The notes: generated by a model not told the origin, from the sequence alone. A stretch of DNA of 64,000 nucleotides from a virus (IMGVR_UViG_3300032282_006037:1-64000); one strand, 5' to 3'. Shown: positions 13,548 to 31,292, counted from the first letter of the stretch. Numbers and translations are program-made.

Positions 13548-14124
13548 ATTTAGATCTTATGTTTTTAGATATAGAATTCAATGCAGCATTATGAATATTA
13601 ATACATCCTTGTATGCTTAATTTCATTTCTTTGCTTATTTTTCTCCAAGGTGTAAGTTTTTTATTACCTGAGTACCTCATCGAGAATATCTTGTGCAATC
13701 TTTTATCAGGATGATTTTGCAGCTGTACTTTGAAATCTTTTAATACTGAATCTTTAAAGTCTTGTTGAGCTTTGTTACATTCATATTTTATTTTTTCAAA
13801 ATCATAAGAATGATCGTTTAGTTCAATATATTTTCTATTTTTATTAGAAGCATTTAGACACATCCACTTAGCTTCGTTGCCTAAAAATGTAGAAAACTTA
13901 GTTCCTTTGTCTTCATCGTATTTCAAGGCAGAATTATATATTGCTAATTCTTTATCGTTTATGATTTCTTCTCTTAAAGTATCGTTATTACAGTTCTTTA
14001 AAAAAGAATTAACGATATCTAGATAAATTCCAGAATGCCTATCGATTAACTCTGATAAAGATTGATCTACATGTTTATTTCTTTTTATGTTTTTGATTAA
14101 TTGTATATCACTTAAATTCTCCAT
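13519..14124 (-). CDS. RNA polymerase sigma factor, T4 gp55-like late sigma
   Basis: 201 residues. Residues ~60-95 match sigma-70 region 2 (ALKYDEDKGTKFSTFLGNEA, then KWMCLN), the part that binds core polymerase and melts the -10 element. Residues ~145-190 (RYSGNKKLTPWRKISKEM, then KLSIQGCINIHNAAL) resemble the region 4 helix-turn-helix. Length matches T4 gp55 (185 aa), a minimal late sigma. It overlaps the dNMP kinase gene upstream and the glycosyltransferase downstream. It is the obvious candidate to read the GTGTA motif found before late genes in this window. Confidence 0.75.
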   Translation of the reverse strand: MENLSDIQLIKNIKRNKHVDQSLSELIDRHSGIYLDIVNSFLKNCNNDTLREEIINDKELAIYNSALKYDEDKGTKFSTFLGNEAKWMCLNASNKNRKYIELNDHSYDFEKIKYECNKAQQDFKDSVLKDFKVQLQNHPDKRLHKIFSMRYSGNKKLTPWRKISKEMKLSIQGCINIHNAALNSISKNIRSKYEITSFSAD

Positions 14125-14737
14125 ATAATGACCATTTATTTTTAAAGAATAAACGATTTATATGCCAATTGCAAGTTTCTTTTTCTTCAGTAAATGTTTT
14201 CCATTTTATCTTATAATCTGCCGCTCGTTTTAATATAGGATCGTTTAGTTTCTCTTGAAAATTAGCGGGTTTTTGACCCATTCTGTTTAAATGTATAACA
14301 AAACCGCCGTTTTGTTTAATCCATTTAGCTTCGTTTTCATATCTTACATCAGTAATAATGACTATTATTTTATTATTTATAGAAGATTTAACCTTTTTAT
14401 CTATTTTTTTTATCCAATAATCTTGATCTAGTTTTCTGCAAACATCTGTGCCGTAAGAAACTAGAATAGGTCTTATAACATCTTTTTCAGCATTGTTTTC
14501 GGTGAAAGCTGAAATATTCAGTTTATCTTTTAAAAAGTCATCTAGATCATGTTTTAATGCAGAAGCAAACGATATCGTTAAACAAGGAAATCCATTCTTT
14601 TGAAGTTTTTGCATTAAATATTTACCTAATGTATCTTTACCGCATCTAGCAACGCCAGCTATTCCAAAAATAAGGGGAAGTTCTTTTTGCACGATTTTTT
14701 TTCTACGTTTAATGATAAAATTATGAGTGTTTTGCAT
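14108..14737 (-). CDS. Deoxynucleoside monophosphate kinase-like P-loop kinase
   Basis: 209 residues. A P-loop GVARCGKDTL (residues 28-37) is followed by NMP-kinase elements including DVRYENEAKWIKQNGGFVI, a motif characteristic of the phage dNMP kinase group (T4 gp1-like). It phosphorylates dNMPs to dNDPs for DNA synthesis. It is first in the leftward operon kinase-sigma-glycosyltransferase. The N-terminal ~20 residues before the P-loop strand are basic and could include a slightly late true start. Confidence 0.8.
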   Translation of the reverse strand: MQNTHNFIIKRRKKIVQKELPLIFGIAGVARCGKDTLGKYLMQKLQKNGFPCLTISFASALKHDLDDFLKDKLNISAFTENNAEKDVIRPILVSYGTDVCRKLDQDYWIKKIDKKVKSSINNKIIVIITDVRYENEAKWIKQNGGFVIHLNRMGQKPANFQEKLNDPILKRAADYKIKWKTFTEEKETCNWHINRLFFKNKWSLYGEFK

Positions 14738-14830
14738 CTAAGGTATACCTAGGGAAATTATTAAGGTTATTCAGAGGAATTTTTTAACGTGACACTATGG
14801 AAATTTATTGTGGTTGCGCTTTGATTAATT

Positions 14831-14858
14831 AAACTTTCTTCGAAGACTTCGAAAGTTT
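14831..14858 (-). terminator. Terminator-like hairpin
   Basis: An 8-bp inverted repeat AAACTTTC / GAAAGTTT with a 12-nt spacer overlaps the stop codon of the leftward gene ending at 14857. The spacer can itself pair partly (CTTCGAAG). Only a short T-poor tail follows on either strand, so termination strength is doubtful. The rest of the 14738-14856 gap holds no gene. Confidence 0.4.
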
Positions 14859-15162
14859 AATGCAAAGTTTCTCCTTTGTCAAGAAAAAAAGAGGAAAGAG
14901 AAGATAAATCTTTAGCTAATTTATAATATCCTAAATCTGTTAATAATTCTGGAACATGCAAAAATTCAATTTTATCATCACTATCATTAACTTTTTTGAT
15001 ATTCATTAATAGTGATAATTTAGTATTTTTACCTAGCTTTTCTATTATCTCCTTCAAAGCTGAAGTAGCAGCTTCAGTATAACTACAACTTAAAATAATA
15101 CTTTGCCAATCAGCACATTCAACTAGATAAAAATCTTCTTGACTTTCTTCTGTCTTAAACAT
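14857..15162 (-). CDS. Hypothetical protein
   Basis: 101 residues from ATG 15162; an upstream in-frame ATG at 15189 would overlap the divergent gene on the other strand, so the shorter start is preferred. Acidic, mostly helical, with a C-terminal LAKDLSSLSSFFLDKGE segment. No recognised motif. It shares a ~20-bp divergent promoter region with the glycosyltransferase at 15184. Confidence 0.6.
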   Translation of the reverse strand: MFKTEESQEDFYLVECADWQSIILSCSYTEAATSALKEIIEKLGKNTKLSLLMNIKKVNDSDDKIEFLHVPELLTDLGYYKLAKDLSSLSSFFLDKGETLH

Positions 15163-15167
15163 AAGAT
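15139..15167 (+). promoter_or_regulatory. Sigma-70-like promoter for the glycan island
   Basis: TTGACT, a 17-bp spacer and TAAGAT precede the first gene of the rightward glycan island; predicted transcription start about 10 nt before the ATG at 15184. It lies inside the start of the divergent gene. Weaker match than the TTGACA promoters elsewhere. Confidence 0.4.
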
Positions 15168-15183
15168 TAGAGTATATTAATAA

Positions 15184-16047
15184 ATGCAAGATGTCAATAA
15201 AAAAATACTTTGGCTTGCAGATTTTGATTTAGATCAAGCAGCTGGTGGAGCACAAAGAAGTGACAAGATTCTAATAGAACATGGAAAGAAAATAGGTTTT
15301 AATATACTAAAAGTAAATAAAACTAACTTTGGCGCTCATATTAACATTCATGATTATGATATTCTAATTACATCTAATATCTGTTCACTTCATTTTGAAA
15401 ATAATTGGTTATTGGATGAAATAGCTAAACATAAACACCATGTTAGAATAGAACATGATTCTAATATGTATTTGACAAATGAGCAAAGGAAGAAACTTTT
15501 TTCTAATTGTAAAAAGACATTTTTTTTAACTGAATATCACCATCAATACTTTATTGAAGATTATGGCGATATATTTCATAACGTAGAAATAGTTCCTGAT
15601 CCTATTGATACTGATTTCTTTTGTGATCTAAAAAATGAAAGGGAAAATAAAATTTTATATGCTGGCTATATGCATCCTTTAAAAGGTAGCTATGAATTTT
15701 TTGATTTTGTATTACAGAATACAGATTTAAAGTTTGTTGTATCAGGATGGACCAACTATCCATCTTTAGAATTTTTATGCAAAAGCGTTCCAAACGTTGA
15801 ATATATTAGCTTAACAGATTATGAAAAAATGCCAGAAATATACAATAAGTATTCTCATTTTTACTATAACCCAAATTTAAAAGAACCATTTTGTCGTTCT
15901 TTCGCAGAAGCTTTTTTATGTGGTTGTAAAATAATAAGCAATAAAGTCAATCAAATTGGCAGCTATCAATATTTTATGAAACACGGTAAAGAAAAGTTTG
16001 TAAATGATTGTAAAAACGCTCATATAAAGTTCTGGGAAAAACTGTGA
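15184..16047 (+). CDS. GT4-like glycosyltransferase
   Basis: 287 residues. N-terminal AGGAQRSDKILIEHGKKIGF resembles the glycine-rich entry of GT4 enzymes, and the C-terminal half contains ILYAGYMHPLKGSYEFFDFV, then the donor-site stretch EPFCRSFAEAFLCGCKII. It is first in a long rightward run of sugar genes; its TGA overlaps the GTG start of the next gene. Donor and acceptor unknown. Confidence 0.8.
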   Translation: MQDVNKKILWLADFDLDQAAGGAQRSDKILIEHGKKIGFNILKVNKTNFGAHINIHDYDILITSNICSLHFENNWLLDEIAKHKHHVRIEHDSNMYLTNEQRKKLFSNCKKTFFLTEYHHQYFIEDYGDIFHNVEIVPDPIDTDFFCDLKNERENKILYAGYMHPLKGSYEFFDFVLQNTDLKFVVSGWTNYPSLEFLCKSVPNVEYISLTDYEKMPEIYNKYSHFYYNPNLKEPFCRSFAEAFLCGCKIISNKVNQIGSYQYFMKHGKEKFVNDCKNAHIKFWEKL

Positions 16048-16949
16048 AAATACTTTTAGTTTTTAATAAAAATTTGCCGCGTGAAAATCTTAATAGAATG
16101 GATTCTGGATATTATAATACTTATATTCCATTGTTAGAACTTGGACATGAAGTATACTTGTATGATACCATAAACCCAAAAGAAAAAAATTTTTCTAAAG
16201 TTGTCGAGCAATTTAAACCTGATTTGATTTTTTGCTGTTTAACAGGTAATTCTCAAATCACTCCTTATGAACCAATTGAAGAAATTAAACAAATAACCAA
16301 TTCTGGTAAAATCAAAACATTTAATTGGTTTTGCGATGATACTTGGAGGTTCGAAAGTTTTTCTCAATATTTTTGTCATTATTTCAATGTTTGCTCTACT
16401 CCAGAATATTCTTATATTGAGAAATTTAAACAATCTGGTTATAACAATATAATTTTAGGACAATGGCATTGCAACGAAGATTTATATTTACTAAATCAAA
16501 AAAAATATAATATTGGTTTTTGTGGAGGATTGAATCAAACAAGATTAAACTTTTTAAAACAATTAAATCAACAGGTTTCATATTTTTCAGGATGTTCTTA
16601 TGAAGATATGATCTCACTATATGCATCTTGCAAAATAGTTTTGAATCTTACCATCAATGACAACGATACCGAAAAAAAACGCCAAATGAAATTGCGCATT
16701 TTTGAAGCGACCTGTGTCAATAGTATGTTACTGACTGAAAGCGTTCAAAACATAGAGATGTATTATAAACCAAATGATGAAATAATTTGTTTCGAAAATG
16801 TAGAAGAATGTATAGATAAAATTCAATTCTTTTTAAGAAACGAAAGCGAAATGCAAAAAATTGCTCAAAAAGGAAACGAAAGATTTTTGAAAGAACACAC
16901 TTCAAAAATTAGATTAAATAATCTTATTAAAGAAATAAATAAAATATGA
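16044..16949 (+). CDS. CgeB-like glycosyltransferase
   Basis: 301 residues with a GTG start that overlaps the previous stop (GTGA). The C-terminal part matches the CgeB/Glycos_transf_1_2 type: IGFCGGLNQTRLNFLKQL, SCKIVLNLTINDND, RIFEATCVNSMLLTESVQN, and the ending EMQKIAQKGNERFLKEHTS. These enzymes belong to the GT-B fold and are frequent in O-antigen and flagellin glycosylation loci. Overlaps the next gene by 4 bp. Confidence 0.8.
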   Translation: MKILLVFNKNLPRENLNRMDSGYYNTYIPLLELGHEVYLYDTINPKEKNFSKVVEQFKPDLIFCCLTGNSQITPYEPIEEIKQITNSGKIKTFNWFCDDTWRFESFSQYFCHYFNVCSTPEYSYIEKFKQSGYNNIILGQWHCNEDLYLLNQKKYNIGFCGGLNQTRLNFLKQLNQQVSYFSGCSYEDMISLYASCKIVLNLTINDNDTEKKRQMKLRIFEATCVNSMLLTESVQNIEMYYKPNDEIICFENVEECIDKIQFFLRNESEMQKIAQKGNERFLKEHTSKIRLNNLIKEINKI

Positions 16950-17845
16950 AAATTTATATTCAAAGACATTCTGAATTTGCTGGCAAATGGATTTATTCTG
17001 GCTATGCCCATGCATGGGCTTATTTAGATTATCAAGTAAAATTTATTTCTCAATTGGAAGAAATAAAAGACGATTCTGATTATTGGTTATTTATTACAGA
17101 CGGAATAATAAATGAACAAAATTTAAAATATTTAAAAAATAGCGGAAAAACTTTTTTGTATGTGCAGCCTAATTATTTTCCACATCATTGGGGTAAACAT
17201 CCGAATTTTGTATGTTCCTTATCGCCCGAGCTTATCGATAAGATAAATAATTTAAAAAACATAAAAAAATGGACTTTTGGATATGATACAGAAACTTATT
17301 ATCCATTATGGAAAAATGTTATATCGATGCCGCTAGCTTACGATAATATAAATTATATTACTGAAGACACTTTTGATTATAAATATGACATTTGCTTTGT
17401 TGGGGGCTTTGCAAATAATGGATTTAATGAAAAAGTAGTAATAATACAAAACACTCTAAACGCTTTTTTGAAAGCTGGATTCAAGTGTGGTTTTTCAGTC
17501 GGTCAAAATATTTCTCATGAATTAGAAAATTATGTTTTAAATAAGTCTAAAGTTGCTCTTAACATACATGATTTATATCAGAGAACATTAGGATTAGATA
17601 CTAACGAAAGAACTTTTAAATCATTAGGATGCAATGGCACTTTAATATCTGATTCAATTAAACAAATAGATTTTTTATTCCATAACTGTTTTCAATCAAA
17701 TGATATCGATAAGTTAATTGAAAAAACTAAAGAATTTTGTCAATTAGATATTGAAGAATTAAATTCATATAAAAAGCAAAATAAAAAAATAATTGACAAT
17801 GAACATACATATATAAAAAGAGTAGAAAAGTTTATTCAAGCATAA
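16946..17845 (+). CDS. CgeB-like glycosyltransferase
   Basis: 299 residues, same general family as its neighbour but divergent in sequence. Motifs: YDICFVGGFANNGFNEKV, SKVALNIHDLYQRT, NERTFKSLGCNGTLISD, and the closing IIDNEHTYIKRVEKF. Probably adds a different sugar in the same glycan. Starts and ends in overlaps of 1-4 bp with flanking genes. Confidence 0.75.
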   Translation: MKIYIQRHSEFAGKWIYSGYAHAWAYLDYQVKFISQLEEIKDDSDYWLFITDGIINEQNLKYLKNSGKTFLYVQPNYFPHHWGKHPNFVCSLSPELIDKINNLKNIKKWTFGYDTETYYPLWKNVISMPLAYDNINYITEDTFDYKYDICFVGGFANNGFNEKVVIIQNTLNAFLKAGFKCGFSVGQNISHELENYVLNKSKVALNIHDLYQRTLGLDTNERTFKSLGCNGTLISDSIKQIDFLFHNCFQSNDIDKLIEKTKEFCQLDIEELNSYKKQNKKIIDNEHTYIKRVEKFIQA

Positions 17846-18567
17846 TGAAAATATCAATTTTAATTCCTAATTACAACAAGTCAAAATATATTTCAGAATG
17901 CTTGACTTCTTGTTTAAATCAAACATATGAAAATTTAGAAATCATAGTTGTAGACAATGAAAGCACAGATGAAAGCGTAAAAATAATTAAAGAATTTCAA
18001 AATAAATATCCAAATAAATTTATATTTGATACAGCTAAAAATATTTATCCTCGCTGTTGGGACGAGTGTTTAGAAAAAGCTTTTGAATATTTCACTGGCG
18101 AATACTATACAATCATTGCTTCTGATGATTTCATACATAATAAATATATTGAAAACTGTGTGAAATTTATTAAAGAAAAAAATTGTAATTTTTTTCAATC
18201 TCCTTTACATTGGATCGACGATAATAAAAATCTAATCAGATATTCAAAGCATGAATATAATAATTTACTTGACTTAAAAAATAAATTAATTATAGGATGC
18301 GTCATTAACACACCAACTGTATTTTTTAAAACAGAAACGATTAAAAAATATAATTTATTTGCTAATCCAATAAAATATTCTGGAGCTGCTGATTATGATT
18401 TATATTGTAATATTGCAGATAAAGGTTTATATATTGAAAATTGTTCAGAATGGTTAGGTTATTACTATAGAATTAATGAAACACAAGCGACCTGGGAAAT
18501 GCATAAAGACGAAATGAAATACGATAAACTTATTCAAAAAAAATGGAGAGACAAATGGACGAATTAA
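17845..18567 (+). CDS. GT2-family glycosyltransferase
   Basis: 240 residues, GT-A fold. Classic N terminus ISILIPNYNKSKYISECL, SCLNQTYENLEIIVVDNEST, and the metal-binding DxD-type motif in ASDDF. A C-terminal conserved acidic site (GAADYDLYCNIADKG) is present. The enzyme should transfer a sugar from a nucleotide-sugar with inversion. The 3' end overlaps the dehydratase gene. Confidence 0.85.
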   Translation: MKISILIPNYNKSKYISECLTSCLNQTYENLEIIVVDNESTDESVKIIKEFQNKYPNKFIFDTAKNIYPRCWDECLEKAFEYFTGEYYTIIASDDFIHNKYIENCVKFIKEKNCNFFQSPLHWIDDNKNLIRYSKHEYNNLLDLKNKLIIGCVINTPTVFFKTETIKKYNLFANPIKYSGAADYDLYCNIADKGLYIENCSEWLGYYYRINETQATWEMHKDEMKYDKLIQKKWRDKWTN

Positions 18568-19871
18568 ACAATATTTTAGAATTAGTAAAAAATTATATTG
18601 ATAGCAAACAAAAAACTTGGACTCCTGGTAAAGACTGGGTTCAATATGCTGGTCCATATTTTACTTCAGAAGAATACATTGCTTCAATAAAGTCTTTATT
18701 AAATGGTTGGCTTGTACTTGGTCAAGATACTATCGCCTTTGAAAGCAAATTTCCTAAACATCTTGGCAAAGAATATGGCATACTAACTAACAGTGGCAGC
18801 AGTTCTAATTTAATAATGATGTCAGCAATGACATCAAAAAGATTATACAATTTTCAAAAAGGCACAAAAGTAATTACCCCAATTGCTGGATTTCCAACTA
18901 CAATCAATCCTATATTTCAAGTTGGATTTGAGCCTCTTTTTGTTGATATAGATTTAGATACTTTAAATCTTAATTTAGATCAAGTTGAAGAAGCAGCTAA
19001 AAAAGGAGCTAAAATAATTACTTTTGCTCATGTTTTAGGAAATCCTCCAAACATGAATCGATTAATGGAAATCGTAAAGCAGCATAATCTTATCTTACTT
19101 GAAGATTGTTGTGATGCTTTGGGTTCTACTTATGATGGAAAACCTCTTGGTAGTTTTGGAGAACTAGCTAGTTGTAGTTTTTATCCTGCACATCACATGA
19201 CTATGGGTGAAGGAGGTTTTGTGGCTTGCAAGACTCAATTACAAGAAATAGTTACTAGAAGTTTTAGAGAATGGGGCCGTGGATGTTATTGCGTTGGGAA
19301 AAAAGCTAACTTATTAAAGAATGGTTCATGCGGCAAACGTTTTTCTAACTGGTTGCCAGAACTTCCAGATGAAGAATTCGATCACAAATATGTCTATGAT
19401 GAAATCGGATATAATTTAAAACCAATGGAACTTCAAGCTTCAATGGGGCTAGCACAAATTAATAAGCTTCAAGAAATTCATTCTTTAAGAAAGCGTAATC
19501 ATGCTTTATTATGTGAGATTTTCAATCGATATCAACGTTATTTTATAGTTCCAAAAGCTACCAATTTATCTGATCCAAGCTGGTTTGCTTTTGCTGTTAC
19601 AATTAAAGATGGCGCACCTTTTAAACGTAAACAAATTGTTCAACATTTTGAAAATGCTAAAATTCAAACTCGTCCTTATTTTGCTGGTAATATTATGCTT
19701 CAACCAGCTTATTCAGGAATAATGAATTCAAAAGATATTATTGAAAAATATCCTGTTGCTCGTAAAATTACAACAGATACATTTTTTCTTGGAGTAAGCC
19801 CAGTTATATCTGAGGAACAAATATATTATATAGAATATATTTTAGATTCTTATATAAAACAACTTAAATAA
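18555..19871 (+). CDS. NDP-4-keto-6-deoxyhexose 3-dehydratase (E1, RfbH/AscC/DdhC type)
   Basis: About 438 residues. Start chosen at ATG 18555, which has a GGAGAG Shine-Dalgarno 4 nt upstream; an ATG at 18543 is also in frame. It belongs to the DegT/DnrJ aminotransferase fold, but the PLP-anchoring lysine is replaced by His (FYPAHHMTMGEGG; His217 counted from 18543), diagnostic of the E1 dehydratase. It also has the E1 [2Fe-2S] pattern: Cys190-X57-Cys248-X-Cys250-X12-Cys263, where the published E1 has X7 at the last gap. E1 removes the C3 hydroxyl, the key step to 3,6-dideoxyhexoses. Its usual partner E3 reductase is not in the window. Confidence 0.88.
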   Translation: MDELNNILELVKNYIDSKQKTWTPGKDWVQYAGPYFTSEEYIASIKSLLNGWLVLGQDTIAFESKFPKHLGKEYGILTNSGSSSNLIMMSAMTSKRLYNFQKGTKVITPIAGFPTTINPIFQVGFEPLFVDIDLDTLNLNLDQVEEAAKKGAKIITFAHVLGNPPNMNRLMEIVKQHNLILLEDCCDALGSTYDGKPLGSFGELASCSFYPAHHMTMGEGGFVACKTQLQEIVTRSFREWGRGCYCVGKKANLLKNGSCGKRFSNWLPELPDEEFDHKYVYDEIGYNLKPMELQASMGLAQINKLQEIHSLRKRNHALLCEIFNRYQRYFIVPKATNLSDPSWFAFAVTIKDGAPFKRKQIVQHFENAKIQTRPYFAGNIMLQPAYSGIMNSKDIIEKYPVARKITTDTFFLGVSPVISEEQIYYIEYILDSYIKQLK

Positions 19872-20831
19872 ATGAAAAAGATAGTTTATATCACAGGATG
19901 CTTAGGTTTAATTGGCTCTTATTTAACAAGAAACTGTTTAGAAAAAGGGTGGTATGTTAGAGGTGTTGATAAAATAACATATGCAGCAAGACCAGAATTA
20001 CTTAAAGAATTTGAAAAATATAATAATTTCAGCTTTGAAAAAATAGATATTTGCGACATCAAAACGTTAATTGATTGTGATTATATTATTAATACAGCCG
20101 CAGAAACACATGTAGATAATTCAATTAGAGAAAGTGAAGCTTTTTTGCATTCCAATATAGATGGAGTATATAATATATTAGAAGTATTAAGAAAATATAA
20201 AAAAGAAGGATTAGTATTTCCAACATTTATTCACTTTAGTACAGATGAAGTATATGGAGATATTTTACAAGGCGAACACGCTGAAAATGATATTTTAAAA
20301 CCAAGTAATCCATACTCAGCAACAAAAGCTGCCGCAGATCAATTGATACTAGCTTGGGCTAGAACTTATAAAATTAATTACGTTATCATTAGACCTACCA
20401 ATAATTATGGCGTTGGGCAATATGTTGAAAAATTAATTCCAAAATCTTGTAAATGTTTAACTCTTGGTAAAAAAATACCCCTTCATAATCAAGGTACGCC
20501 TTTTAGAAATTGGTTACATGCTAAAGATACAGCGCTTGGAGTAATTAAAATAATAGAAAGCGATATTAAAAATGAAATATTTAATATTGCTGGAGGTTTT
20601 GAGCAATCAAATATAGAAACTGTTAAAAAAATCATAAATATTTATTTTGATAATAAACCACAAAAATCTTTAGAAGATTATTTAGATTTTTCTGTTCAAA
20701 GGATTGGTCAGGATGTTAGATATTCATTAAACGACAATAAATTAAGAAAACTTGGCTGGGAGCCTAAATGTATTTTTAATAATGAAATAAAAAGGATTGT
20801 AGATTTTTATAAAAATAATTTCATATGGTAA
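19872..20831 (+). CDS. dTDP-glucose 4,6-dehydratase-like enzyme
   Basis: 319 residues, extended short-chain dehydrogenase. NAD-binding glycine motif ITGCLGLIGSYL, the AETHVDNSI stretch, the catalytic-site FIHFSTDEVYGD and Y-x-x-x-K in PYSATKAAADQLI, and RPTNNYGVGQYVEKLIPK all match RfbB-type dTDP-glucose 4,6-dehydratase rather than the CDP-glucose enzyme. It makes the 4-keto-6-deoxy sugar that E1 would act on. The gene begins one base after the stop of E1. Nucleotide specificity (dTDP versus CDP) is not certain. Confidence 0.85.
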   Translation: MKKIVYITGCLGLIGSYLTRNCLEKGWYVRGVDKITYAARPELLKEFEKYNNFSFEKIDICDIKTLIDCDYIINTAAETHVDNSIRESEAFLHSNIDGVYNILEVLRKYKKEGLVFPTFIHFSTDEVYGDILQGEHAENDILKPSNPYSATKAAADQLILAWARTYKINYVIIRPTNNYGVGQYVEKLIPKSCKCLTLGKKIPLHNQGTPFRNWLHAKDTALGVIKIIESDIKNEIFNIAGGFEQSNIETVKKIINIYFDNKPQKSLEDYLDFSVQRIGQDVRYSLNDNKLRKLGWEPKCIFNNEIKRIVDFYKNNFIW

Positions 20832-21859
20832 ACAAAATACGTGTTTCAGATTATATTGCACAAAAACTGGTTGAAAAAAACATAAAATATGTATATGGAT
20901 TAATGGGAGGAGGTGCTGCTGGATTGAATGATGCTTTTATAAAAAATGAACAAATAAAATATATATGTTTTCATCATGAGCAAGGAGCCGGAAACGCAGC
21001 AATTGGACAAAGCAAAGTTACTAATTATTTATCAGTTGTTAATCCAACAACTGGTTGTGGTGGAACAAATTGTATAACTTCTGTTTTAGATGCTTGGCAA
21101 GACAGTCACCCTATTTTGTTCATATCTGGAAATGTTAAAAAATCTCAAACAAGTTTATTTATAAATAAAGAAAAACAAATAAAGTTAAGAAAATATGGTA
21201 TTCAAGAACATAATATAATTTCAACTGTAAATTCAATTACTAAATATTCTAAAATGATTGAAAATGCACTAGATGTCCCATATGAACTTGATTATGCAAT
21301 AGATCAAGCATTATCTCCAAGAATGGGTCCTGTTTGGCTTGACATTCCAAGTGATATTCAACATGCTCAAATTGATATTGAACAATGTAAAAAATTTATA
21401 CCAAACAACAATTTATCGGTTGATAAAAATAAAAATTTTTCAAAATTACTCCCCTTATTAAATAAATATAATAAACCTTTATTTTTAATCGGTCACGGAA
21501 TTAAATTAAGCAAAAGCGACTTATTATTTAAAAAAATTATTGAAAAATATCAAATTCCATTTGTTACTTCTTATTTAGCAATCGATATTGTAAATCATAA
21601 TCATCCATTAAATATAGGCACTATAGGAATCAAAGGTAGCCGATCAGGAAATTTTGCTATACAAAATGCAGATTTATTAATAATTTTAGGGTGTTCTCTG
21701 AATTGCTCTCACACAGGATATGACGAAAAAATATTTTCTCCAAATTCTTATAAAGTTATGGTAGATATTGATTCAAATGAATATGCAAAAGGAATTGTTA
21801 AAATAGATGAATATATTCAAGCGGAGTTATTTAATTTTTTAAATTATGATGAATCATAA
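20825..21859 (+). CDS. Thiamine-diphosphate enzyme, N-terminal half (YerE/acetolactate-synthase-like)
   Basis: 344 residues covering the pyrimidine-binding and central domains of the acetolactate synthase family. Catalytic glutamate Glu52 in FHHEQGAGNAAIG, TGCGGTNCITSVLDAWQDS, and PVWLDIPSDIQHAQI are clear. The PP domain is missing here and is encoded by the next gene, which overlaps by 14 bp in another frame. Together (344 + 252 residues) they equal a full-length enzyme of this family. In a dideoxysugar cluster the best functional model is YerE, which joins a two-carbon unit from pyruvate to C4 of a 4-keto-3,6-dideoxy sugar. Confidence 0.8.
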   Translation: MVNKIRVSDYIAQKLVEKNIKYVYGLMGGGAAGLNDAFIKNEQIKYICFHHEQGAGNAAIGQSKVTNYLSVVNPTTGCGGTNCITSVLDAWQDSHPILFISGNVKKSQTSLFINKEKQIKLRKYGIQEHNIISTVNSITKYSKMIENALDVPYELDYAIDQALSPRMGPVWLDIPSDIQHAQIDIEQCKKFIPNNNLSVDKNKNFSKLLPLLNKYNKPLFLIGHGIKLSKSDLLFKKIIEKYQIPFVTSYLAIDIVNHNHPLNIGTIGIKGSRSGNFAIQNADLLIILGCSLNCSHTGYDEKIFSPNSYKVMVDIDSNEYAKGIVKIDEYIQAELFNFLNYDES

Positions 21860-22604
21860 AAAATGGCTTGACAAATGTCAACACTGGAAACAAAAGTGGC
21901 CAACTTATGACATAAAACAAAATATTGATAACGAAAATGAAAAAATTAATTGTTATACTTTTATTGAAACTTTGAATGAAGAAATGACCAATAACGAAAC
22001 TATTGTTTATGACGCTGGAATTCCATATTATATAATAAGTCATAACTTAAAAACAAAACAAAATCAAAAAATTATTTTATCTGGCGCTCAAGCAGATATG
22101 GGATTTTCTTTGCCTGCTTCTATAGGTGTTTATTTAGCCGATACTACAAAAAACGTGGTAGTTATAACTGGAGATGGTAGCTTTAACACTAATATTCAAG
22201 AATTAGCTACTATTAGAAATTTAAACATACCACTCAAAATATTTGTATTAAATAATAATGGATACTTAAGCATAAGAAATACCCAAAAGAAATTTTATGA
22301 AAATAGAGTCTATGGAACAAGCGTAAATAATGGTTTATGGTTTCCAGATTTAAATAAAATTGCAAACGCTTATGAAATTGAATACTTTAAAATAAAAAAT
22401 AATAAAGAACTTTACAATAACATAAAAAATGTTTTAAATAAAAAAAATACTATTATATGTGAAATAATTTGCAAAGAAGATCAAGAAGTTATTCCTACTT
22501 TAATGCTTAAAAAAGACGAAAACGGAAATACTATACAATGTGGATTAGATGACATGTATCCATTTTTATCACAGAAAGAAATAGAGGAAGAAAAAATAAT
22601 ATGA
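21846..22604 (+). CDS. Thiamine-diphosphate enzyme, C-terminal PP half (YerE-like)
   Basis: 252 residues. It contains the thiamine-diphosphate/Mg motif GDGSF (109-113) followed at the expected distance by NNNGY (136-140), and the preceding SGAQADMGFSLPASIG. It continues exactly where the N-terminal half stops, starting at ATGATG inside the end of that gene. Either this is a genuine two-subunit enzyme with translational coupling or a frameshift splits one gene. Ends in ATGA overlap with the next gene. Confidence 0.8.
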   Translation: MMNHKKWLDKCQHWKQKWPTYDIKQNIDNENEKINCYTFIETLNEEMTNNETIVYDAGIPYYIISHNLKTKQNQKIILSGAQADMGFSLPASIGVYLADTTKNVVVITGDGSFNTNIQELATIRNLNIPLKIFVLNNNGYLSIRNTQKKFYENRVYGTSVNNGLWFPDLNKIANAYEIEYFKIKNNKELYNNIKNVLNKKNTIICEIICKEDQEVIPTLMLKKDENGNTIQCGLDDMYPFLSQKEIEEEKII

Positions 22605-23347
22605 AATCTAAAGTTCTCATTACAGGTGGAAACGGAAGAATAGGAAAGCTTTTAATTCCTTTGTTACAAGATAAATATCAAATAACTATTTTTGAATCTA
22701 ATAAAAAACGCAAAAACGAAAATAAAAATTTTTTCTATGGCGATATTAGAAATATAGAAGATTTGGAATCTGCTTTAGCTGATGTTGATATATTAATTCA
22801 TTTAGCTGGTATTCCAGATGAAGATAGTTTTTTAGAAAAATTGATGCCCATTAATATTGAAGGGACATATAAAGTTTTTGAAGCTGCAAAAAATTGCGGT
22901 GTTAAAAAAATAATTTTTGCCAGCACAATTCAAACTGTTTGGAATTATCCTAATTCAATTAAAATAACAACCAATATGCCACCAAGACCTTTTAATTTGT
23001 ATGCTTGCACTAAAATTTTTGGTGAAACTTTAGGTAGATATTATTCAGACAAATTTGGTATTTCTGTAATATGTTTACGAATAGGTTATTTTTTAAATTA
23101 TGATCACGAACTGCTTTCTGATTCTGAAAAATCAAAAATGTGGTGCAGCCCAAATGATTTATGTCAAATAATAGAGAAATCAATTAAAACTGAATGTAAA
23201 TATGAAATATTTTTTGCGCTATCAAATAATAAAAATTCAAACTACGATATTTCTAATGTAATTGAAAAAATTGATTATAAACCAATAGATGGAACCGAAA
23301 ATAAAAAAAAAATTCAAACAGCCATTCATGAAGACTGCATATTATGA
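22601..23347 (+). CDS. NAD-dependent epimerase/dehydratase (SDR)
   Basis: 248 residues. Rossmann motif GGNGRIGKLLIPLL, DILIHLAGIPDED, and active-site YACTK (Y-x-x-x-K) followed by FGETLGRYYSDKFGIS and LRIGYF. The layout is close to uronate dehydrogenase-type extended SDRs. It follows the YerE-like enzyme directly, so it is a candidate for the reductase that finishes the branched sugar (the YerF step), but sequence alone does not show this. Confidence 0.75.
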   Translation: MKSKVLITGGNGRIGKLLIPLLQDKYQITIFESNKKRKNENKNFFYGDIRNIEDLESALADVDILIHLAGIPDEDSFLEKLMPINIEGTYKVFEAAKNCGVKKIIFASTIQTVWNYPNSIKITTNMPPRPFNLYACTKIFGETLGRYYSDKFGISVICLRIGYFLNYDHELLSDSEKSKMWCSPNDLCQIIEKSIKTECKYEIFFALSNNKNSNYDISNVIEKIDYKPIDGTENKKKIQTAIHEDCIL

Positions 23348-23410: not shown

Positions 23411-24166
23411 ATGAAATTATTTAAAACAAAAAATAAAAATAAACTATATAATAAAAATAAAAGTTTATCAGAGATTGCAAATTTTTATGAAATGGATAAA
23501 GGAAATTGTGATAAAAATAAATTATCTTGGGGAAAAGATTGGCCAGATCACGTATGCATGGGATATACTGAAACATATGAAAAATATATGTTCCAATATA
23601 GAGAGAAAAAAATTAAACTTTTTGAAATAGGAATTTGTGATAAAAGATTTCCATTCGCTTCTCCTAAAATGTGGTTGACATATTTTAAAAATATTAATTT
23701 ATATTGCATAGATAATTTTTGGGGAAATTATCTTGATGAAAGAAAAAAAGATATTGAAATGTTAAATAAACTAGGTGTTAATTTTATTTATGCTGATCAA
23801 GGGAGTTTTTGCGATTGGAATGAAATTAAAAAACATTGTCCAAACGATTTTGATTTTTTTATTGAAGATGGAAGTCACTGGCCTAATCATATGGCCATAA
23901 GTCTTTGGCAAGCGAAAGATATTTTAAAATCTAAAGCTTATTATTTTATGGAAGACTTACAAAATCCTTTAACAAGTAGAGGTAAATTTAGAATCGATAA
24001 CTCTTTATTAACAGAAGATTTATTAAACACTTTAAAAAATAAAAAATTTAATTCTCATTTTTTAAATGATATTCAAAACAAAGAAGTAAATGAAAATTTT
24101 GAATTAATAGATATGATTTTAGATAAACATTCTGTAATTTATTTAGCTGTATTTCAAAAAAAATAA
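23411..24166 (+). CDS. SAM-dependent sugar O-methyltransferase-like protein
   Basis: 251 residues. The start of the fold is recognisable: LSEIANFYEMDKG, then KLFEIGICDKRFPFASPKMW followed by YCIDNFWG (the SAM-binding strands), and FDFFIEDGSHWPNHMAI. This matches a class I methyltransferase group that includes sugar 2'-O-methyltransferases of antibiotic pathways. Probably O-methylates a sugar in the phage glycan. A 26-codon open frame occupies the 63-bp gap upstream but is not convincing as a gene. Confidence 0.7.
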   Translation: MKLFKTKNKNKLYNKNKSLSEIANFYEMDKGNCDKNKLSWGKDWPDHVCMGYTETYEKYMFQYREKKIKLFEIGICDKRFPFASPKMWLTYFKNINLYCIDNFWGNYLDERKKDIEMLNKLGVNFIYADQGSFCDWNEIKKHCPNDFDFFIEDGSHWPNHMAISLWQAKDILKSKAYYFMEDLQNPLTSRGKFRIDNSLLTEDLLNTLKNKKFNSHFLNDIQNKEVNENFELIDMILDKHSVIYLAVFQKK

Positions 24167-24939
24167 TGACAAATAAAAAAATTTTAATAACAGGCGGAAA
24201 TGGGTATATAGCCTCATCATTAAACAATAGTTTAAAATCAAAGTATAATATAATAGCACCAAACAAACATGATTTAAACTTATTGAATGAAGATTCAATA
24301 AAATATTTTTTTGATAAAAATCAAATTTTTGATTGTGTTGTACATTGCGCAATAACTGGCGGAAGCCGATTAAAAAAAGATGATTGGAATGTACTAGATT
24401 CTAATTTACAAATGTATTATAATTTATGCAAAAAAGAAAAATTTTTTAAAAAATTTATTAATTTTGGATCTGGTGCTGAAATCTATGATTCAGAATCTCC
24501 ATATGGATTAAGTAAAAAAGTAATATCTAAATCAATATCAGAAAAACAAAACTATTACAATATAAGAATATTTAATGTTTTTGGATATAACGAATTGCCT
24601 ACAAGGTTCATTAAAAAAAATATAATTAATTATATAAACAAGAAAAATATCGAAGTGTACGAAAATAAAAAAATGGATTTTTTTTATATAGATGATTTGA
24701 TTAATACGGTAGAATTTTATATAAATAACAACAATCTCGCAAAAGAAATTAATTGCTCATACAAAGAAAAATATTGTCTTTTTGAAGTAGCAAATTTAAT
24801 AAATAATCTTAATGATCATAAAGTTCAAATCCATTATGAAAATATAATCAAGCCAGATTATGTTGGCGAATTCAATTTGCCTATTTCATATATAGGATTA
24901 CAAAATGGAATTAAAAATACTTACGATAAATTAAAATAA
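24166..24939 (+). CDS. NAD-dependent epimerase/dehydratase (SDR)
   Basis: 257 residues. Rossmann motif ITGGNGYIASSLNNSL, VVHCAITGGSRLKKD, INFGSGAEIYDSESPYGLSK with Y-x-x-x-K, and RIFNVFGYNELPTRFI. Typical of nucleotide-sugar epimerases or reductases. It begins 1 bp before the methyltransferase stop and is followed after 2 bp by a glycosyltransferase. The substrate cannot be told from motifs. Confidence 0.75.
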   Translation: MTNKKILITGGNGYIASSLNNSLKSKYNIIAPNKHDLNLLNEDSIKYFFDKNQIFDCVVHCAITGGSRLKKDDWNVLDSNLQMYYNLCKKEKFFKKFINFGSGAEIYDSESPYGLSKKVISKSISEKQNYYNIRIFNVFGYNELPTRFIKKNIINYINKKNIEVYENKKMDFFYIDDLINTVEFYINNNNLAKEINCSYKEKYCLFEVANLINNLNDHKVQIHYENIIKPDYVGEFNLPISYIGLQNGIKNTYDKLK

Positions 24940-24941
24940 TT

Positions 24942-25823
24942 ATGAAAACAGCATGTTTTATATATTCAGATAATAAAAAGTATGATAAATTACAACAATG
25001 CGCCATTAAAAGTTTTAAAAAATATCATCCAGACATTCCAATATTTGTATACAGTTCGAAAAATACAGAACTAGCTCATTTAAAAGATTTTTCATATGCT
25101 AGATATTTGTTTGCTTATGAAGTATCAAAAAAATATAATATACAAAAAATTATTATATTAGGCTCAGATACCATTACTTGTGATAGGCTTGATGAATTTG
25201 TCGATAACTATAATTTTGATATATTAACTTCGCTTGATTATCCATATCCCCTTGAAATAGTTGCTGTGCCAGCACAACAAATTATTGAACAAGTTAATCA
25301 GTATACTATTTGTCATTTTAAATTTGCTTCTTCAAATGATAAACATGTTAATGCAGATGTAGTTTGTTTTAATAATATAAACGCTCTTGAAGAAGTATTA
25401 AATTGTCATAAATGGATGAAAACAGAATACGGAGAACAAGCAGCATTAAATTATATCTGTAACATTCAAAATAAATACACAAATTTCATTGTAGATGGTG
25501 ATTATGAAAACTCAGAAGTTGTTTATAATGCTAGAGCTAAAGGAAACACTTGCGAACGAGATACTGAAAACCCTTGGTTTAAATATACAAATTTATTTGA
25601 AGTAAAAAATAATAAATTATATACTGGAACTCATAAAAATTGTATAAAAGCTAAACAAATAAAAGTTTGGCACTACATAGAAGGATTCGGTTGTAAAAAA
25701 GACGATGAATTTGAAGACTCAATAAACACATGGATCGAAAAAGGATTTAATGAAGAAACAAAAAATTTCTTTTCTGATCAATGTGATTGCGGAGATTTTT
25801 TTAAACAAAAATTTATAATATGA
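24942..25823 (+). CDS. GT8-like glycosyltransferase
   Basis: 293 residues. The N terminus (TACFIYSDNKKYDKLQQCAI) and an acidic motif in IIILGSDTITCDRLDEF look like a GT-A fold enzyme with a DxD-type metal site; NADVVCFNNINALEEVL and YGEQAALNYIC fit the GT8 pattern. Co-linear with the flanking nucleotide-sugar genes and overlapping the next by 4 bp. Confidence 0.65.
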   Translation: MKTACFIYSDNKKYDKLQQCAIKSFKKYHPDIPIFVYSSKNTELAHLKDFSYARYLFAYEVSKKYNIQKIIILGSDTITCDRLDEFVDNYNFDILTSLDYPYPLEIVAVPAQQIIEQVNQYTICHFKFASSNDKHVNADVVCFNNINALEEVLNCHKWMKTEYGEQAALNYICNIQNKYTNFIVDGDYENSEVVYNARAKGNTCERDTENPWFKYTNLFEVKNNKLYTGTHKNCIKAKQIKVWHYIEGFGCKKDDEFEDSINTWIEKGFNEETKNFFSDQCDCGDFFKQKFII

Positions 25824-26740
25824 GCATTTTAGTAACTGGCGGATCTAGCATGGTCGGAAAACATTTGCAAAAAATATTTCCAAAAGCTATTTATTTAACT
25901 AGTAAAGATTGCGATTTAACAAATTACAATGAAACTTATAATGTAATTAAAAACATAAAACCAAATACTGTTATTCATCTTGCTGCAAAAGTTGGCGGAA
26001 TTATGGATAATATAAATAAACCCGTTGATTTTTTTGAGCAAAATATATTAATAAATACAAATACATTAAAAGCTAGTTATGCAAATGGTGTTAATAAATT
26101 TATTGGAATCTTAAGCACATGCATTTATCCCGATAAACTAGAAAATAATCAATACCCAATAGAAGAAAAATTATTACATTCAGGACCGCCAACACCAACT
26201 AATTTTGCTTATGGATATGCCAAAAGATGTCTCGCAGTACAAATAAATGCGTACAATAAACAATACGGAACAAAATATTCTTCATTAATTCCTTGCAATT
26301 TATATTCAGAAAATGATCATTTTACTGGTGACAAATCGCATTTCTTATCCAGTTTAATATATAAAATACTAAAAGCAAAACGAGAAAATCAAAATGCAAT
26401 AGAGTTATTTGGAACTGGTTCTCCATTAAGACAATTTATGTATGCTGAAGATCTTGCAAAAGCGATTATTCAAACGATTGAACTGAATGAAGCTTTTAAC
26501 TTTAATATTTGTACTGATGAAAACAAAAGCATTAAAGAAATAGCAGAAATCGCGCTTTCAGCGTGTGAAGCTGATCAGCTTGAAATAAAATGGAATAAAA
26601 ATAAACCAGATGGCCAATTCAGAAAAGACGCTTCGTCAAAATTGTTTTTACAAAAGTTTCCACAATTTAAGTTCACTTCTTTATTTGAAGGAATACAAAA
26701 AACTTATAATATCATAAAGAATGAAAAGCTGGAAGCTTAA
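25820..26740 (+). CDS. GDP-L-fucose / GDP-L-colitose synthase
   Basis: 306 residues of the WcaG/Fcl family. Features: TGGSSMVGKHLQKIF, VIHLAAKVGGIMDNI, the serine in LSTCIYPDKLE, the Y-x-x-x-K in FAYGYAKRCLA, NAYNKQYGTKYSSLIPCNLY, and PLRQFMYAEDLAKAI. These enzymes epimerise and reduce GDP-4-keto-6-deoxy sugars. Because the next gene is a ColD-type dehydratase and the one after it is Gmd, the product here is more likely GDP-L-colitose (ColC role) than GDP-L-fucose. Confidence 0.85.
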   Translation: MSILVTGGSSMVGKHLQKIFPKAIYLTSKDCDLTNYNETYNVIKNIKPNTVIHLAAKVGGIMDNINKPVDFFEQNILINTNTLKASYANGVNKFIGILSTCIYPDKLENNQYPIEEKLLHSGPPTPTNFAYGYAKRCLAVQINAYNKQYGTKYSSLIPCNLYSENDHFTGDKSHFLSSLIYKILKAKRENQNAIELFGTGSPLRQFMYAEDLAKAIIQTIELNEAFNFNICTDENKSIKEIAEIALSACEADQLEIKWNKNKPDGQFRKDASSKLFLQKFPQFKFTSLFEGIQKTYNIIKNEKLEA

Positions 26741-27872
26741 CGATTCAAATTTCACTTTAATAGACAGACTTAAAATATCTGCGTTTTTTCTCAATAGTAA
26801 AAATTTTTGGACAATGACAGATAAAGTTGCTCGTTTTGAAGAAAAAATGTCTGACTTTACAAACAGTAAGTACTCTATTTTTGTTTCAAGCGGATCAACT
26901 GCGAATACAATTTTAGCTTATTACCTAAAAGATAATTTCTATACAGATAAAAGAAACACAATCGTTTTTCCTTCAACAACATGGATCACTTCTGTTTCTC
27001 CTTTTATAAGAGAAGGATTCAAGCCAAAATTTATTGATATTACGCTTGATGATTTAGCTATCGACCTGAATAAACTAGAATCTTTTTTAGATAAAAATCA
27101 CGAAGAAGTTTCATGTATTTTTGTGACCAGTTTATTAGGTATCGTTCCTAATATCGATAAACTGATAGAAATTAAAAAGAAATACAACATCAACATAATG
27201 ATGGATAATTGCGAAAACACTTTCGGTAAATTTAATAATAAAAATATCAGCAGTTATTTTACATCTACAACAAGTACATATTTCGGCCACCAACTACAAA
27301 GTGTTGAAGGTGGATTCATATTTACGAATGACGAAAAGGAAAGAGATTTATTTTTAATGTATCGAAATCATGGAATGACACGAAGCATCAAAAACAATTC
27401 TCAAATAAAAAACAATGATGTTGACAGCAGATTTGATTTTTATTTACAAGGTAATAATTTTAGAAATTCAAACATACATGCTTTAATAGGACTTTTAGAT
27501 CTTAATAGAGTTGATAAATATATAAATGATAGAAAAACACTATATAATTATTTCTGCAATAAAGTTAACGATTCTGTTTTAAAATATAAAAACAACAATA
27601 AGAATGAAAATTCTTTATTTTGCATACCTTTAATTTTTAATGATAAAATTAAAAAAGAAAAGACAGAACAATTTTGTCAACAAAACAATATCGAATCTAG
27701 ACCTATTATATCTGGCAACTTATTAAGACAAACATGTTTAAAAAAATATGATGACTATTATAATTTTTCAAATAGCGAATACATTCATCAAAATGGTTTC
27801 TATGTAGGTTTAAATTCAAAAGTATCAATCAAACAGCTAGATATATTAATTAATTTTATCAATAATCTTTAA
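26721..27872 (+). CDS. GDP-4-keto-6-deoxy-D-mannose 3-dehydratase, ColD-like
   Basis: 383 residues, DegT fold. At the PLP-lysine position (six residues before E-G-G) it has His190 in TYFGHQLQSVEGGF, as in ColD, whereas ordinary sugar aminotransferases keep Lys. MMDNCENTFGKF supplies the PLP-ring aspartate (Asp162). No E1-type cysteine cluster. ColD uses glutamate to regenerate PMP and removes the C3 hydroxyl of GDP-4-keto-6-deoxymannose. It overlaps the ColC-like gene by 20 bp and precedes Gmd by 1 bp. Confidence 0.85.
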   Translation: MKSWKLNDSNFTLIDRLKISAFFLNSKNFWTMTDKVARFEEKMSDFTNSKYSIFVSSGSTANTILAYYLKDNFYTDKRNTIVFPSTTWITSVSPFIREGFKPKFIDITLDDLAIDLNKLESFLDKNHEEVSCIFVTSLLGIVPNIDKLIEIKKKYNINIMMDNCENTFGKFNNKNISSYFTSTTSTYFGHQLQSVEGGFIFTNDEKERDLFLMYRNHGMTRSIKNNSQIKNNDVDSRFDFYLQGNNFRNSNIHALIGLLDLNRVDKYINDRKTLYNYFCNKVNDSVLKYKNNNKNENSLFCIPLIFNDKIKKEKTEQFCQQNNIESRPIISGNLLRQTCLKKYDDYYNFSNSEYIHQNGFYVGLNSKVSIKQLDILINFINNL

Positions 27873-27873
27873 A

Positions 27874-28929
27874 ATGAGCAAAAATATTTTAATTACAGGC
27901 GTTACTGGACAAGACGGCGCAAACATGGTTGAGTATCTTTTAAAAAATACCAACCACAAAATTTTTGGAATGATACGCAGATCTTCCAATATTAATTTAT
28001 CTAACTGTCAAGCATTTAAAAATGAACCACGATTTCAGTTTGAATATGGTGATTTATCTGATTCGCAAAGCATTAATAATATTATAAGAAAAGTAGATCC
28101 TGATTATTTTATTAATTTTGCTGCTAATAGTTTTGTTGGTTGTAGTTGGCAAATGCCAGAACAAATGTTTGATATAAACAGTTTAGGAGTATTAAGATGC
28201 TTAGAAGCTATTAAAAATCTTAAACCTTCTTGCAGATTTTATTCTGCTGGATCTAGCGAAGAGTGGGGAAATGTAGAATATAGCCCTCAAGATATGAAGC
28301 ACCCCTTGAAGCCTAGAAGTCCATACGGAGCAAGCAAAGCGTCAGCAAGACACATAGTTAAAGTATATAGAGAATCATATAATTTATATGCTGTACATGG
28401 TATTTTATTTAATCATGAAGGAACTAAAAGAGGAGAAGAGTTTGTTACTCGAAAAATCACAAAAGGAGTTGCAAGAATTTATCATGCAATTAAGAATTTA
28501 CAAATCTTTCAACCTATTGAATTAGGTAATTTAGACGCTAGAAGAGATTGGAGTGACAGTGAAGATTTTGTTGATGGTGTTTGGAAAATGTTAAATCAAG
28601 AATCGCCAAAAGATTATATATTAGCTAGTGATGAAACCCATTCAATACGAGAGTTTGTTGAGAAAGCTTTTAATCATGCTAATGTTGAAGGGTATTGGCA
28701 CGGCAATGGAGTTGATGAAAAATATTATATTCATGATAGATATATAGAAGACAAACAAGTGGAATCATCTTGTTTAGTAAAAATCAATCCAAAATTTTAT
28801 AGACCTGCTGAAGTTGAATTGTTATTGGGAGATTCAAAAATAGCTAGAAAAGAATTAGATTGGGAACCAAAAATTTCATTTGACAAACTAGTTGAAAAAA
28901 TGATACGCTTTGACATAGATAATTTTTAA
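27874..28929 (+). CDS. gmd: GDP-mannose 4,6-dehydratase
   Basis: 351 residues, full length. GVTGQDGANMVEYLL (the GxxGQDG signature), SSEEWGNVEYSPQD at the catalytic site, Y-x-x-x-K in SPYGASKASARHIV, VHGILFNHEGTKRGEEFVTR, and LGNLDARRDWSDSEDFVDG are all strongly diagnostic. Makes GDP-4-keto-6-deoxy-D-mannose from GDP-mannose, feeding ColD and ColC-type enzymes encoded just upstream. Last gene of the glycan island. Confidence 0.92.
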   Translation: MSKNILITGVTGQDGANMVEYLLKNTNHKIFGMIRRSSNINLSNCQAFKNEPRFQFEYGDLSDSQSINNIIRKVDPDYFINFAANSFVGCSWQMPEQMFDINSLGVLRCLEAIKNLKPSCRFYSAGSSEEWGNVEYSPQDMKHPLKPRSPYGASKASARHIVKVYRESYNLYAVHGILFNHEGTKRGEEFVTRKITKGVARIYHAIKNLQIFQPIELGNLDARRDWSDSEDFVDGVWKMLNQESPKDYILASDETHSIREFVEKAFNHANVEGYWHGNGVDEKYYIHDRYIEDKQVESSCLVKINPKFYRPAEVELLLGDSKIARKELDWEPKISFDKLVEKMIRFDIDNF

Positions 28930-28934
28930 AATTA

Positions 28935-28953
28935 GTGTATAATTGTTTTTATC
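28935..28953 (+). promoter_or_regulatory. Putative late promoter (GTGTATAAT)
   Basis: GTGTATAATTGTTTTTATC lies directly before the ATG of the reductase gene. The TATAAT at 28938-28943 has no -35 at normal spacing (a TTGACA at 28910 is 22 bp away). Predicted transcription start is about 3-4 nt before the ATG. Confidence 0.55.
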
Positions 28954-30933: not shown

Positions 30934-30938
30934 TCAAA

Positions 30939-30968
30939 GAGCCGCCGAAAGGCGGCTTTAATTTTTTC
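30939..30968 (+). terminator. Rho-independent terminator
   Basis: Stem AGCCGCC / GGCGGCT with a GAAA tetraloop and a downstream T-rich run ends the reductase transcript. Confidence 0.92.
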
Positions 30969-30985
30969 TAGGTGTTGCTATTATA

Positions 30986-31001
30986 GTGTATAAATCTTTA
31001 T
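30986..31001 (+). promoter_or_regulatory. Putative late promoter (GTGTATAAAT)
   Basis: GTGTATAAATCTTTAT lies directly upstream of the ATG at 31002, right after a terminator. The TATAAA at 30989-30994 places the predicted start within about 1 nt of the ATG. Confidence 0.55.
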
Positions 31002-31292
31002 ATGGATCTCATTTTAGATTTTTCTGATAAAATTGTCGCTTATCAATCAAAATATGGAGGCAAGAAACGCAGTCAATTAAAAGATAGTGATTTTTTATTT
31101 CCTGCTACTCGCAGCTTTCCTATTGTAAGTCCTCAAGATGTTCGTGATGCAATTAGTAATTTTGGTAGAATGAAAAACCCAATGAATTATGATCAATTCA
31201 TAAAGAAACTTTATCAAAAAGCAAAAAGCAAAGGTAAAGATTTTGTTGATGCTATTCCTGAATCTACAAAAAAAGAACATAAATTATCCTAA
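31002..31292 (+). CDS. Conserved phage hypothetical protein (DUF6582-like)
   Basis: 96 residues. RSFPIVSPQDVRDAISNFG followed by a basic A-K-x-K-G-K segment resembles a motif widespread in phage capsid-associated and prohead proteins (R-x-F-P-I…VR-A-I). Preceded by a late promoter and followed by other virion-type small genes, so a capsid or packaging-related role is plausible. The family match is by memory of the pattern. Confidence 0.55.
   Translation: MDLILDFSDKIVAYQSKYGGKKRSQLKDSDFLFPATRSFPIVSPQDVRDAISNFGRMKNPMNYDQFIKKLYQKAKSKGKDFVDAIPESTKKEHKLS

Follow-up and report, generated by a model that had tools for sequence, protein, structure and literature searches.

Which sugar would a phage make with a run of carbohydrate genes that resembles a bacterial dideoxysugar pathway, and how would such a pathway be assembled? 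This question is raised by the window analyzed here, which comprises bases 1-64000 of the virus record IMGVR_UViG_3300032282_006037 (73,608 bases). An uninterrupted run of plus-strand genes (18543-23347), whose ends mostly overlap or abut, encodes an E1/RfbH 3-dehydratase, a nucleoside diphosphate-glucose 4,6-dehydratase, a thiamine diphosphate (ThDP) enzyme and a short-chain dehydrogenase/reductase (SDR), and glycosyltransferase genes adjoin it. A sequence-only reading had interpreted this run as one tight operon of four enzyme types for a yersiniose-like sugar. That interpretation captured the kind of pathway but not its details: the tight linkage of the genes is real, but the ThDP "enzyme" is encoded by a pair of genes that overlap, and several features of yersiniose synthesis are missing from the record. 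What is supported is the class of chemistry, a predicted maker of a 3,6-dideoxy-4-keto sugar encoded beside a sugar-branching ThDP carboligase. On the basis of gene content, homology, phylogeny and module exchange, we consider it likely that the cassette makes a C4-branched 3,6-dideoxyhexose on a deoxythymidine diphosphate (dTDP) carrier, with a two-chain YerE-like carboligase whose donor is probably not pyruvate. No description of a two-chain YerE-like enzyme, or of a phage-encoded YerE-like or branched-sugar pathway, was found in the open-access literature searched.

Results

Carboligase modules are exchanged between phage relatives

Comparison contigs and loci are designated by L numbers; L020-L044 were found with E1 alone as the query. 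Fifteen distinct phage loci found through E1 extend at least 7 kb downstream, and 14 of them also hold a dTDP-type dehydratase together with a ThDP- or transketolase-type carboligase, a co-occurrence which argues that the association of these genes is not due to chance. The conserved partner of this set is NDH2, a short extended SDR (24166-24939 in the window; PF01370), a homologue of which is present in 13 of the 14 loci, the exception being L041. The carboligases themselves are of two unrelated kinds, either a decarboxylase-type ThDP enzyme or a split transketolase pair.

Two comparisons show these kinds replacing one another between conserved flanks. DNA of the window is 85% identical to that of its nearest relative, L020, over 14002-20837 and 94% identical over 25810-31007. 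Between these flanks, L020 possesses a split transketolase pair instead of the ThDP pair, SDR and putative methyltransferase of the window, and within the exchanged segment identity to L020 falls to only about 50% for NDH2 and for the gene that follows it (24942-25823, without a Pfam match; 49%). A second exchange distinguishes L037, which carries a transketolase, from L038, which carries HpcH, an SDR, a dehydroquinate (DHQ) synthase and a ThDP enzyme; here the flanks are 87% and 91% identical. Of all the observations, these two exchanges argue most strongly that the E1 product is the substrate of the ThDP pair and that branch and reductase go together. The small split transketolase pair occupies the ThDP slot in L020 (11273-12384), L022, L037 and L042.

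A 3-dehydratase and a dTDP-type 4,6-dehydratase precede the carboligase

The first gene of the run (18543-19871) is, as judged from its conserved residues and family score, a true RfbH/E1 4-keto-6-deoxy-sugar 3-dehydratase, as had been proposed. It exceeds the curated NF011936 cut-off (459.6 versus 423 bits) and aligns with the Yersinia enzyme (PDB 3bcx, E 4e-99), retaining the catalytic His that replaces the pyridoxal phosphate (PLP) lysine and the iron-sulfur cysteines (C...C-x-C...C); these residues are invariant in 15 phage E1 proteins. The open reading frame can begin at 18543, the start previously assigned, 18555, being the second ATG. Neither a PF00175 match nor a match to a Pseudomonas E3 reductase query was detected in the record, which is possibly incomplete.

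The adjacent gene (19872-20831) encodes the proposed 4,6-dehydratase, but nothing favors the cytidine diphosphate (CDP) type implied by a yersiniose pathway. The dTDP-glucose 4,6-dehydratase model TIGR01181 is by far its best match (299 bits, short of the cut-off of 365), versus 68 bits for the CDP model TIGR02622, and the PDB matches are to RmlB. The dTDP model was matched by all 18 phage dehydratase homologues tested, whereas the CDP model gave the best score for eight cellular 4,6-dehydratases, drawn from seven ThDP-linked cassettes and one yersiniose operon, five of which exceeded its cut-off. By profile comparison, then, the dehydratase of the phage cassette is of the dTDP rather than the CDP type. 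The record, a virus contig that may be incomplete, contains no PF00483 nucleotidylyltransferase match and no ddhA match, and host dTDP-glucose is therefore the likely entry to the pathway. Many bacteria make dTDP-glucose for rhamnose, and a dTDP-linked pathway would need no phage nucleotidylyltransferase if the host supplied this precursor.

The ThDP enzyme is encoded by two overlapping genes

The ThDP enzyme is divided between two open reading frames in different frames that overlap by 14 nt. The upstream gene (20825-21859) encodes a 344-residue subunit with the N-terminal PYR and middle domains (PF02776, PF00205) and the HHEQ motif containing the catalytic Glu; the downstream gene (21846-22604) encodes a 252-residue subunit with the C-terminal PP domain (PF02775) and the GDG...NN ThDP motif. 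The same arrangement, with an overlap of 11-29 nt and a C subunit that begins in the +1 frame, is shared by seven other contigs (L001 and L014-L019), six of them distinct, L019 being nearly a copy of L014. Across seven split copies the C subunits are 49-66% identical. A Shine-Dalgarno (SD)-like sequence precedes the C-subunit start in L001, L016, L017 and L018; no clear one was seen in the window, L014 or L015. Taken together, these comparisons indicate that the two-subunit split is real and not an artefact. A programmed frameshift joining the halves is possible, but two polypeptides are the simpler arrangement, since an SD-like motif lies ahead of the C-subunit start in four contigs and translation from that subunit's own start codon would give a complete C chain.

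For modelling only, the halves were joined by an artificial frame step. The AlphaFold model of this chain has a mean pLDDT (predicted local distance difference test) score of 88.5, with its weakest stretch, 337-341, at the junction. Its best solved match is JanthE (Z 49.8; 575 residues superposed at 2.1 A), and yeast acetohydroxyacid synthase scores lower (Z 45.0).

A different interruption occurs in L012 (9001-12166), where about 1.4 kb containing a DUF6745 gene breaks the ThDP gene into N and C parts. No Rfam intron was found in the interruption. The DUF6745 gene between the halves and a different position in the tree mark L012 as an independent case of splitting.

The ThDP pair groups with sugar-branching enzymes on the JanthE side

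A tree of 71 ThDP sequences was built by quick search, with SH-aLRT (Shimodaira-Hasegawa-like approximate likelihood ratio test) support. YerE references were taken from Pseudomonas ddhD-A-B-C-yerE-yerF operons, chosen not by name but by operon order matching the WCS417 gene set (PMC4509608). Every RfbH-linked ThDP enzyme in the tree, whether from a phage or a cell, falls together with YerE, PDB 5ahk and JanthE (support 100) and apart from acetolactate synthase (ALS). PDB 5ahk, a P. protegens protein deposited as an acetohydroxyacid synthase, falls in the yersiniose-operon branch. An ALS identity, which would have told against the sequence-only reading, was rejected: forcing the split enzymes to group with ALS gave p-AU 6e-53 (approximately unbiased test). 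Within this clade the split enzymes cluster together (100), with seven fused phage enzymes as their sister group, on the JanthE side (99), whereas YerE and 5ahk occupy another part of the clade (91). Pairwise identities of the window enzyme are 28-30% with each of YerE, 5ahk and JanthE and 26-27% with ALS; with raw identities so nearly equal, it is the subclade placement that carries the argument. Among the matches listed from a phage record collection, none was closer than about 34% identity to a ThDP half, and these resembled ordinary ALS in bacterial contigs or were unannotated records.

The substrate pocket also departs from that of YerE. At eight JanthE pocket positions (from PMC12188165) the window enzyme has I K S Y N K V T, a set that differs little from that of the split copies linked to PanB (L014-L017), versus F Y R A G M C R in Pseudomonas YerE. 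JanthE position 121 is Ile in the window and Phe in YerE and ALS; JanthE itself, with Val at this position, still takes pyruvate and also accepts 4-hydroxy-2-oxovalerate (PMC12188165). Thirteen of 20 NeuB-linked ThDP enzymes have Asp here. A pocket code at this position, in which Asp would go with NeuB and Phe with YerE, was nevertheless rejected: four independent pairs gave it no support, and it is confounded by lineage. The earlier assignment to YerE-like enzymes thus holds in the broad sense. Phylogeny supports placing the ThDP pair among the sugar-branching YerE/JanthE enzymes, with predicted carboligase activity, but on the JanthE side and without the YerE pocket residues.

Relatives carry donor-type genes beside the ThDP gene

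In nearly all phage loci with a decarboxylase-type carboligase, an enzyme of a 4-hydroxy-2-oxo-acid family adjoins the ThDP gene or lies within a few genes of it. The PanB, HpcH/HpaI, NeuB and DmpG-type families share 4-hydroxy-2-oxo acid products. PanB is the neighbor in L010, L013-L017, L028, L040 and L041; HpcH/HpaI in L002-L004, L018, L023, L032 and L038; NeuB in L005-L009, L011, L012, L021, L026, L027 and L043; and DmpF with DmpG in L036. Cellular loci likewise pair ThDP genes with NeuB or HpcH. Only the window and L001 have no donor-type gene nearby, and PanB, HpcH, NeuB and DmpG queries found no match in the window or in the remaining 9.6 kb of the record, which was searched with the cassette query set only. 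The donor in the window is consequently proposed from its relatives.

The position occupied in relatives by donor-making genes is filled in the window by the SDR (22601-23347) and a putative methyltransferase (23411-24166). The SDR had been taken for the reductase that partners YerE, yet it resembles uronate dehydrogenases and Azf (NF041293 153 bits, below cut-off; PDB uronate dehydrogenases), and no match to a Pseudomonas YerF query was found in the record. No relatives of this SDR were found in viral contigs at the sensitivity used.

The DmpF/DmpG-type pair of L036 (15478-17338), an acetaldehyde dehydrogenase and a 4-hydroxy-2-oxovalerate aldolase, adjoins a JanthE-clade ThDP enzyme. A DHQ-synthase-like gene accompanies the ThDP gene and its NeuB or HpcH neighbor in L026 (14109-15763), L027, L032, L038 and L043, with a short-chain dehydrogenase where checked, and might build a cyclic branch. 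In L002 (11589-12725), L004, L018 and L023, a protein of 379-387 residues with 4Fe-4S domains follows the HpcH aldolase beside the ThDP gene; it could be an electron donor for E1.

Neighboring genes

Upstream of E1 lie four glycosyltransferase-like genes (15184-18567, starts at 15184, 16044, 16946 and 17845; plus strand, as are all the window genes described here) of Pfam families GT1 and GT2, in an order also kept in L015, L020 and L022. Of the flanking genes previously named, the glycosyltransferases were thus recovered, but the methyltransferase only as a weak PHROG match (28 bits) without a Pfam match. Downstream, and absent from the sequence-only reading of this cassette, 25820-28929 holds a GDP-colitose-type set, 94% identical in DNA to L020, with scores below equivalog cut-offs: a GDP-fucose-synthase-like reductase/epimerase (25820-26740; NF047922 197 bits, below cut-off), a ColD-like 3-dehydratase (26721-27872; PDB ColD 2gms, E 1.6e-47, with an aligned His in place of the PLP lysine), and a GDP-mannose 4,6-dehydratase (GMD; 27874-28929; TIGR01472 356 bits, cut-off 415). 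Matches to the phage DNA polymerase are distant and mixed and point to no host.

Discussion

The pathway that best fits these observations would begin with host dTDP-glucose, which the product of 19872-20831 would convert to a 4-keto-6-deoxy sugar. E1 (18543-19871) would then remove the 3-hydroxyl with the help of host electron carriers, proposed because no E3 is encoded. The ThDP pair (20825-22604) is predicted from phylogeny and context to decarboxylate a 2-oxo acid and attach the resulting acyl group at C4 of the 4-keto sugar. Pyruvate is the less probable donor; a 4-hydroxy-2-oxo acid, for example ketopantoate, or some other 2-oxo acid of the host is more probable. NDH2 (24166-24939) is proposed to reduce the branch ketone, and the SDR and methyltransferase may tailor the donor or the branch. 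Finally, the adjoining glycosyltransferases would place the branched sugar, along with a colitose-type sugar from 25820-28929, on a host or virion glycan.

Several observations weigh against this pathway. A number of family matches, that of the dehydratase included, score under the NCBIfam cut-offs. The window has no recognizable donor-making gene, so that its donor is a guess based on related loci; shared ancestry confounds any link of pocket residue 121 to the donor gene; and JanthE accepts pyruvate too. Moreover, isolated cyanophages with a more distant RfbH have no ThDP gene nearby (phage S-H68 carries a dTDP-glucose 4,6-dehydratase and RfbH within 6 kb, with no recognized ThDP gene in the stretch examined), and L025 holds E1 without a carboligase. 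E1 in a phage therefore need not imply branching.

The same order of enzymes and the same superfamily also fit a true yersiniose-type route on a dTDP rather than a CDP carrier, with pyruvate as the donor and a 1-hydroxyethyl branch after reduction. Ubiquitous pyruvate would suffice for a window that lacks a donor-making gene, and the substrate range of JanthE permits it (PMC12188165). We regard this route as unlikely, given that the window enzyme lies outside the YerE clade, differs at position 121 and at other pocket positions, has PanB-carrying loci as its four closest split relatives, and is accompanied by no YerF homologue. Yersiniose itself is not supported, because the dehydratase is of dTDP type, no PF00483 cytidylyltransferase, E3 or YerF homologue was detected in the record, the enzyme is placed on the JanthE side, and its pocket is not that of YerE.

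Two further explanations would dispense with the branch. Were the ThDP pair to serve acetolactate or other small-metabolite synthesis, E1 and the dehydratase would yield a plain 3,6-dideoxyhexose (abequose or paratose) on dTDP. The domain architecture is indeed ALS-like, and ALS models give the halves their top NCBIfam scores, far below cut-off; but the rejected ALS placement, the constant linkage to E1, and the transketolase that takes the same slot in near relatives make such a role highly improbable. Even harder to credit is that a single gene is decaying, or was misread during sequencing, and that no working enzyme is made. Such a view can draw on the two frames in the window and on fused homologues, which are common, yet the same +1-frame overlap recurs in six further distinct loci as one fully supported clade, SD-like sequences precede four of the C starts, and the catalytic motifs are intact. 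Furthermore, for both halves compared with L014 the nonsynonymous rate (dN) is far below the synonymous rate (dS), with dS near saturation.

With a C4-branched dTDP sugar as the preferred product, the phage loci can be viewed as a fixed dTDP-3,6-dideoxy-4-keto sugar module joined to a swappable slot, filled either by a ThDP ligase with its own 2-oxo-acid-making aldolase or by a split transketolase; in the window, a YerE-like enzyme of two subunits would use a donor other than pyruvate to make a sugar not yet described. We judge the chances of this reading as a whole to be about even. If it is true, rare-sugar chemistry in phages comes in swappable pieces, such that one recombination changes the branch while the rest of the pathway stays, allowing stepwise change of a surface epitope on the virion or the infected cell. 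It would also provide a set of new carboligases, their donors hinted at by the adjoining aldolase, of relevance to chiral tertiary alcohol synthesis.

Among known systems, the yersiniose pathway of Yersinia pseudotuberculosis and Pseudomonas (ddhABCD-yerE-yerF) likewise encodes a 4,6-dehydratase, E1 and a ThDP carboligase of one superclade together, with probable branching at C4 of a 3,6-dideoxy-4-keto sugar. The phage cassette differs in its dTDP-type dehydratase, in the lack of detectable ddhA, ddhD and YerF homologues, and in a ThDP enzyme that is split, of another subclade and with another pocket. Among solved structures, JanthE of Janthinobacterium sp. HH01 (PDB 8rph) comes closest in both sequence and predicted fold; it belongs to the same large subclade, although it is a single chain with a CDG motif, whereas the phage enzyme has two chains and GDG, at about 29% identity. 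ErwE, of the erwiniose pathway of Pectobacterium atrosepticum, prefers 4-hydroxy-2-oxo acid donors (PMC12247030), and donors of this kind, longer than pyruvate, are proposed to be used on a 3,6-dideoxy-4-keto sugar in both systems; the likeness concerns the described donor chemistry, ErwE being CDP-linked and the phage cassette dTDP-type with a putative donor. The GDP-colitose cassette (Gmd-ColD-ColC) has the same three enzyme types as 25820-28929, which constitutes a second pathway in the window, beside the branched-sugar genes and not part of them. This colitose-type part has phage precedent in the isolated Synechococcus phage S-CAM7, in which GMD, GDP-fucose synthetase and a ColD homologue are annotated side by side.

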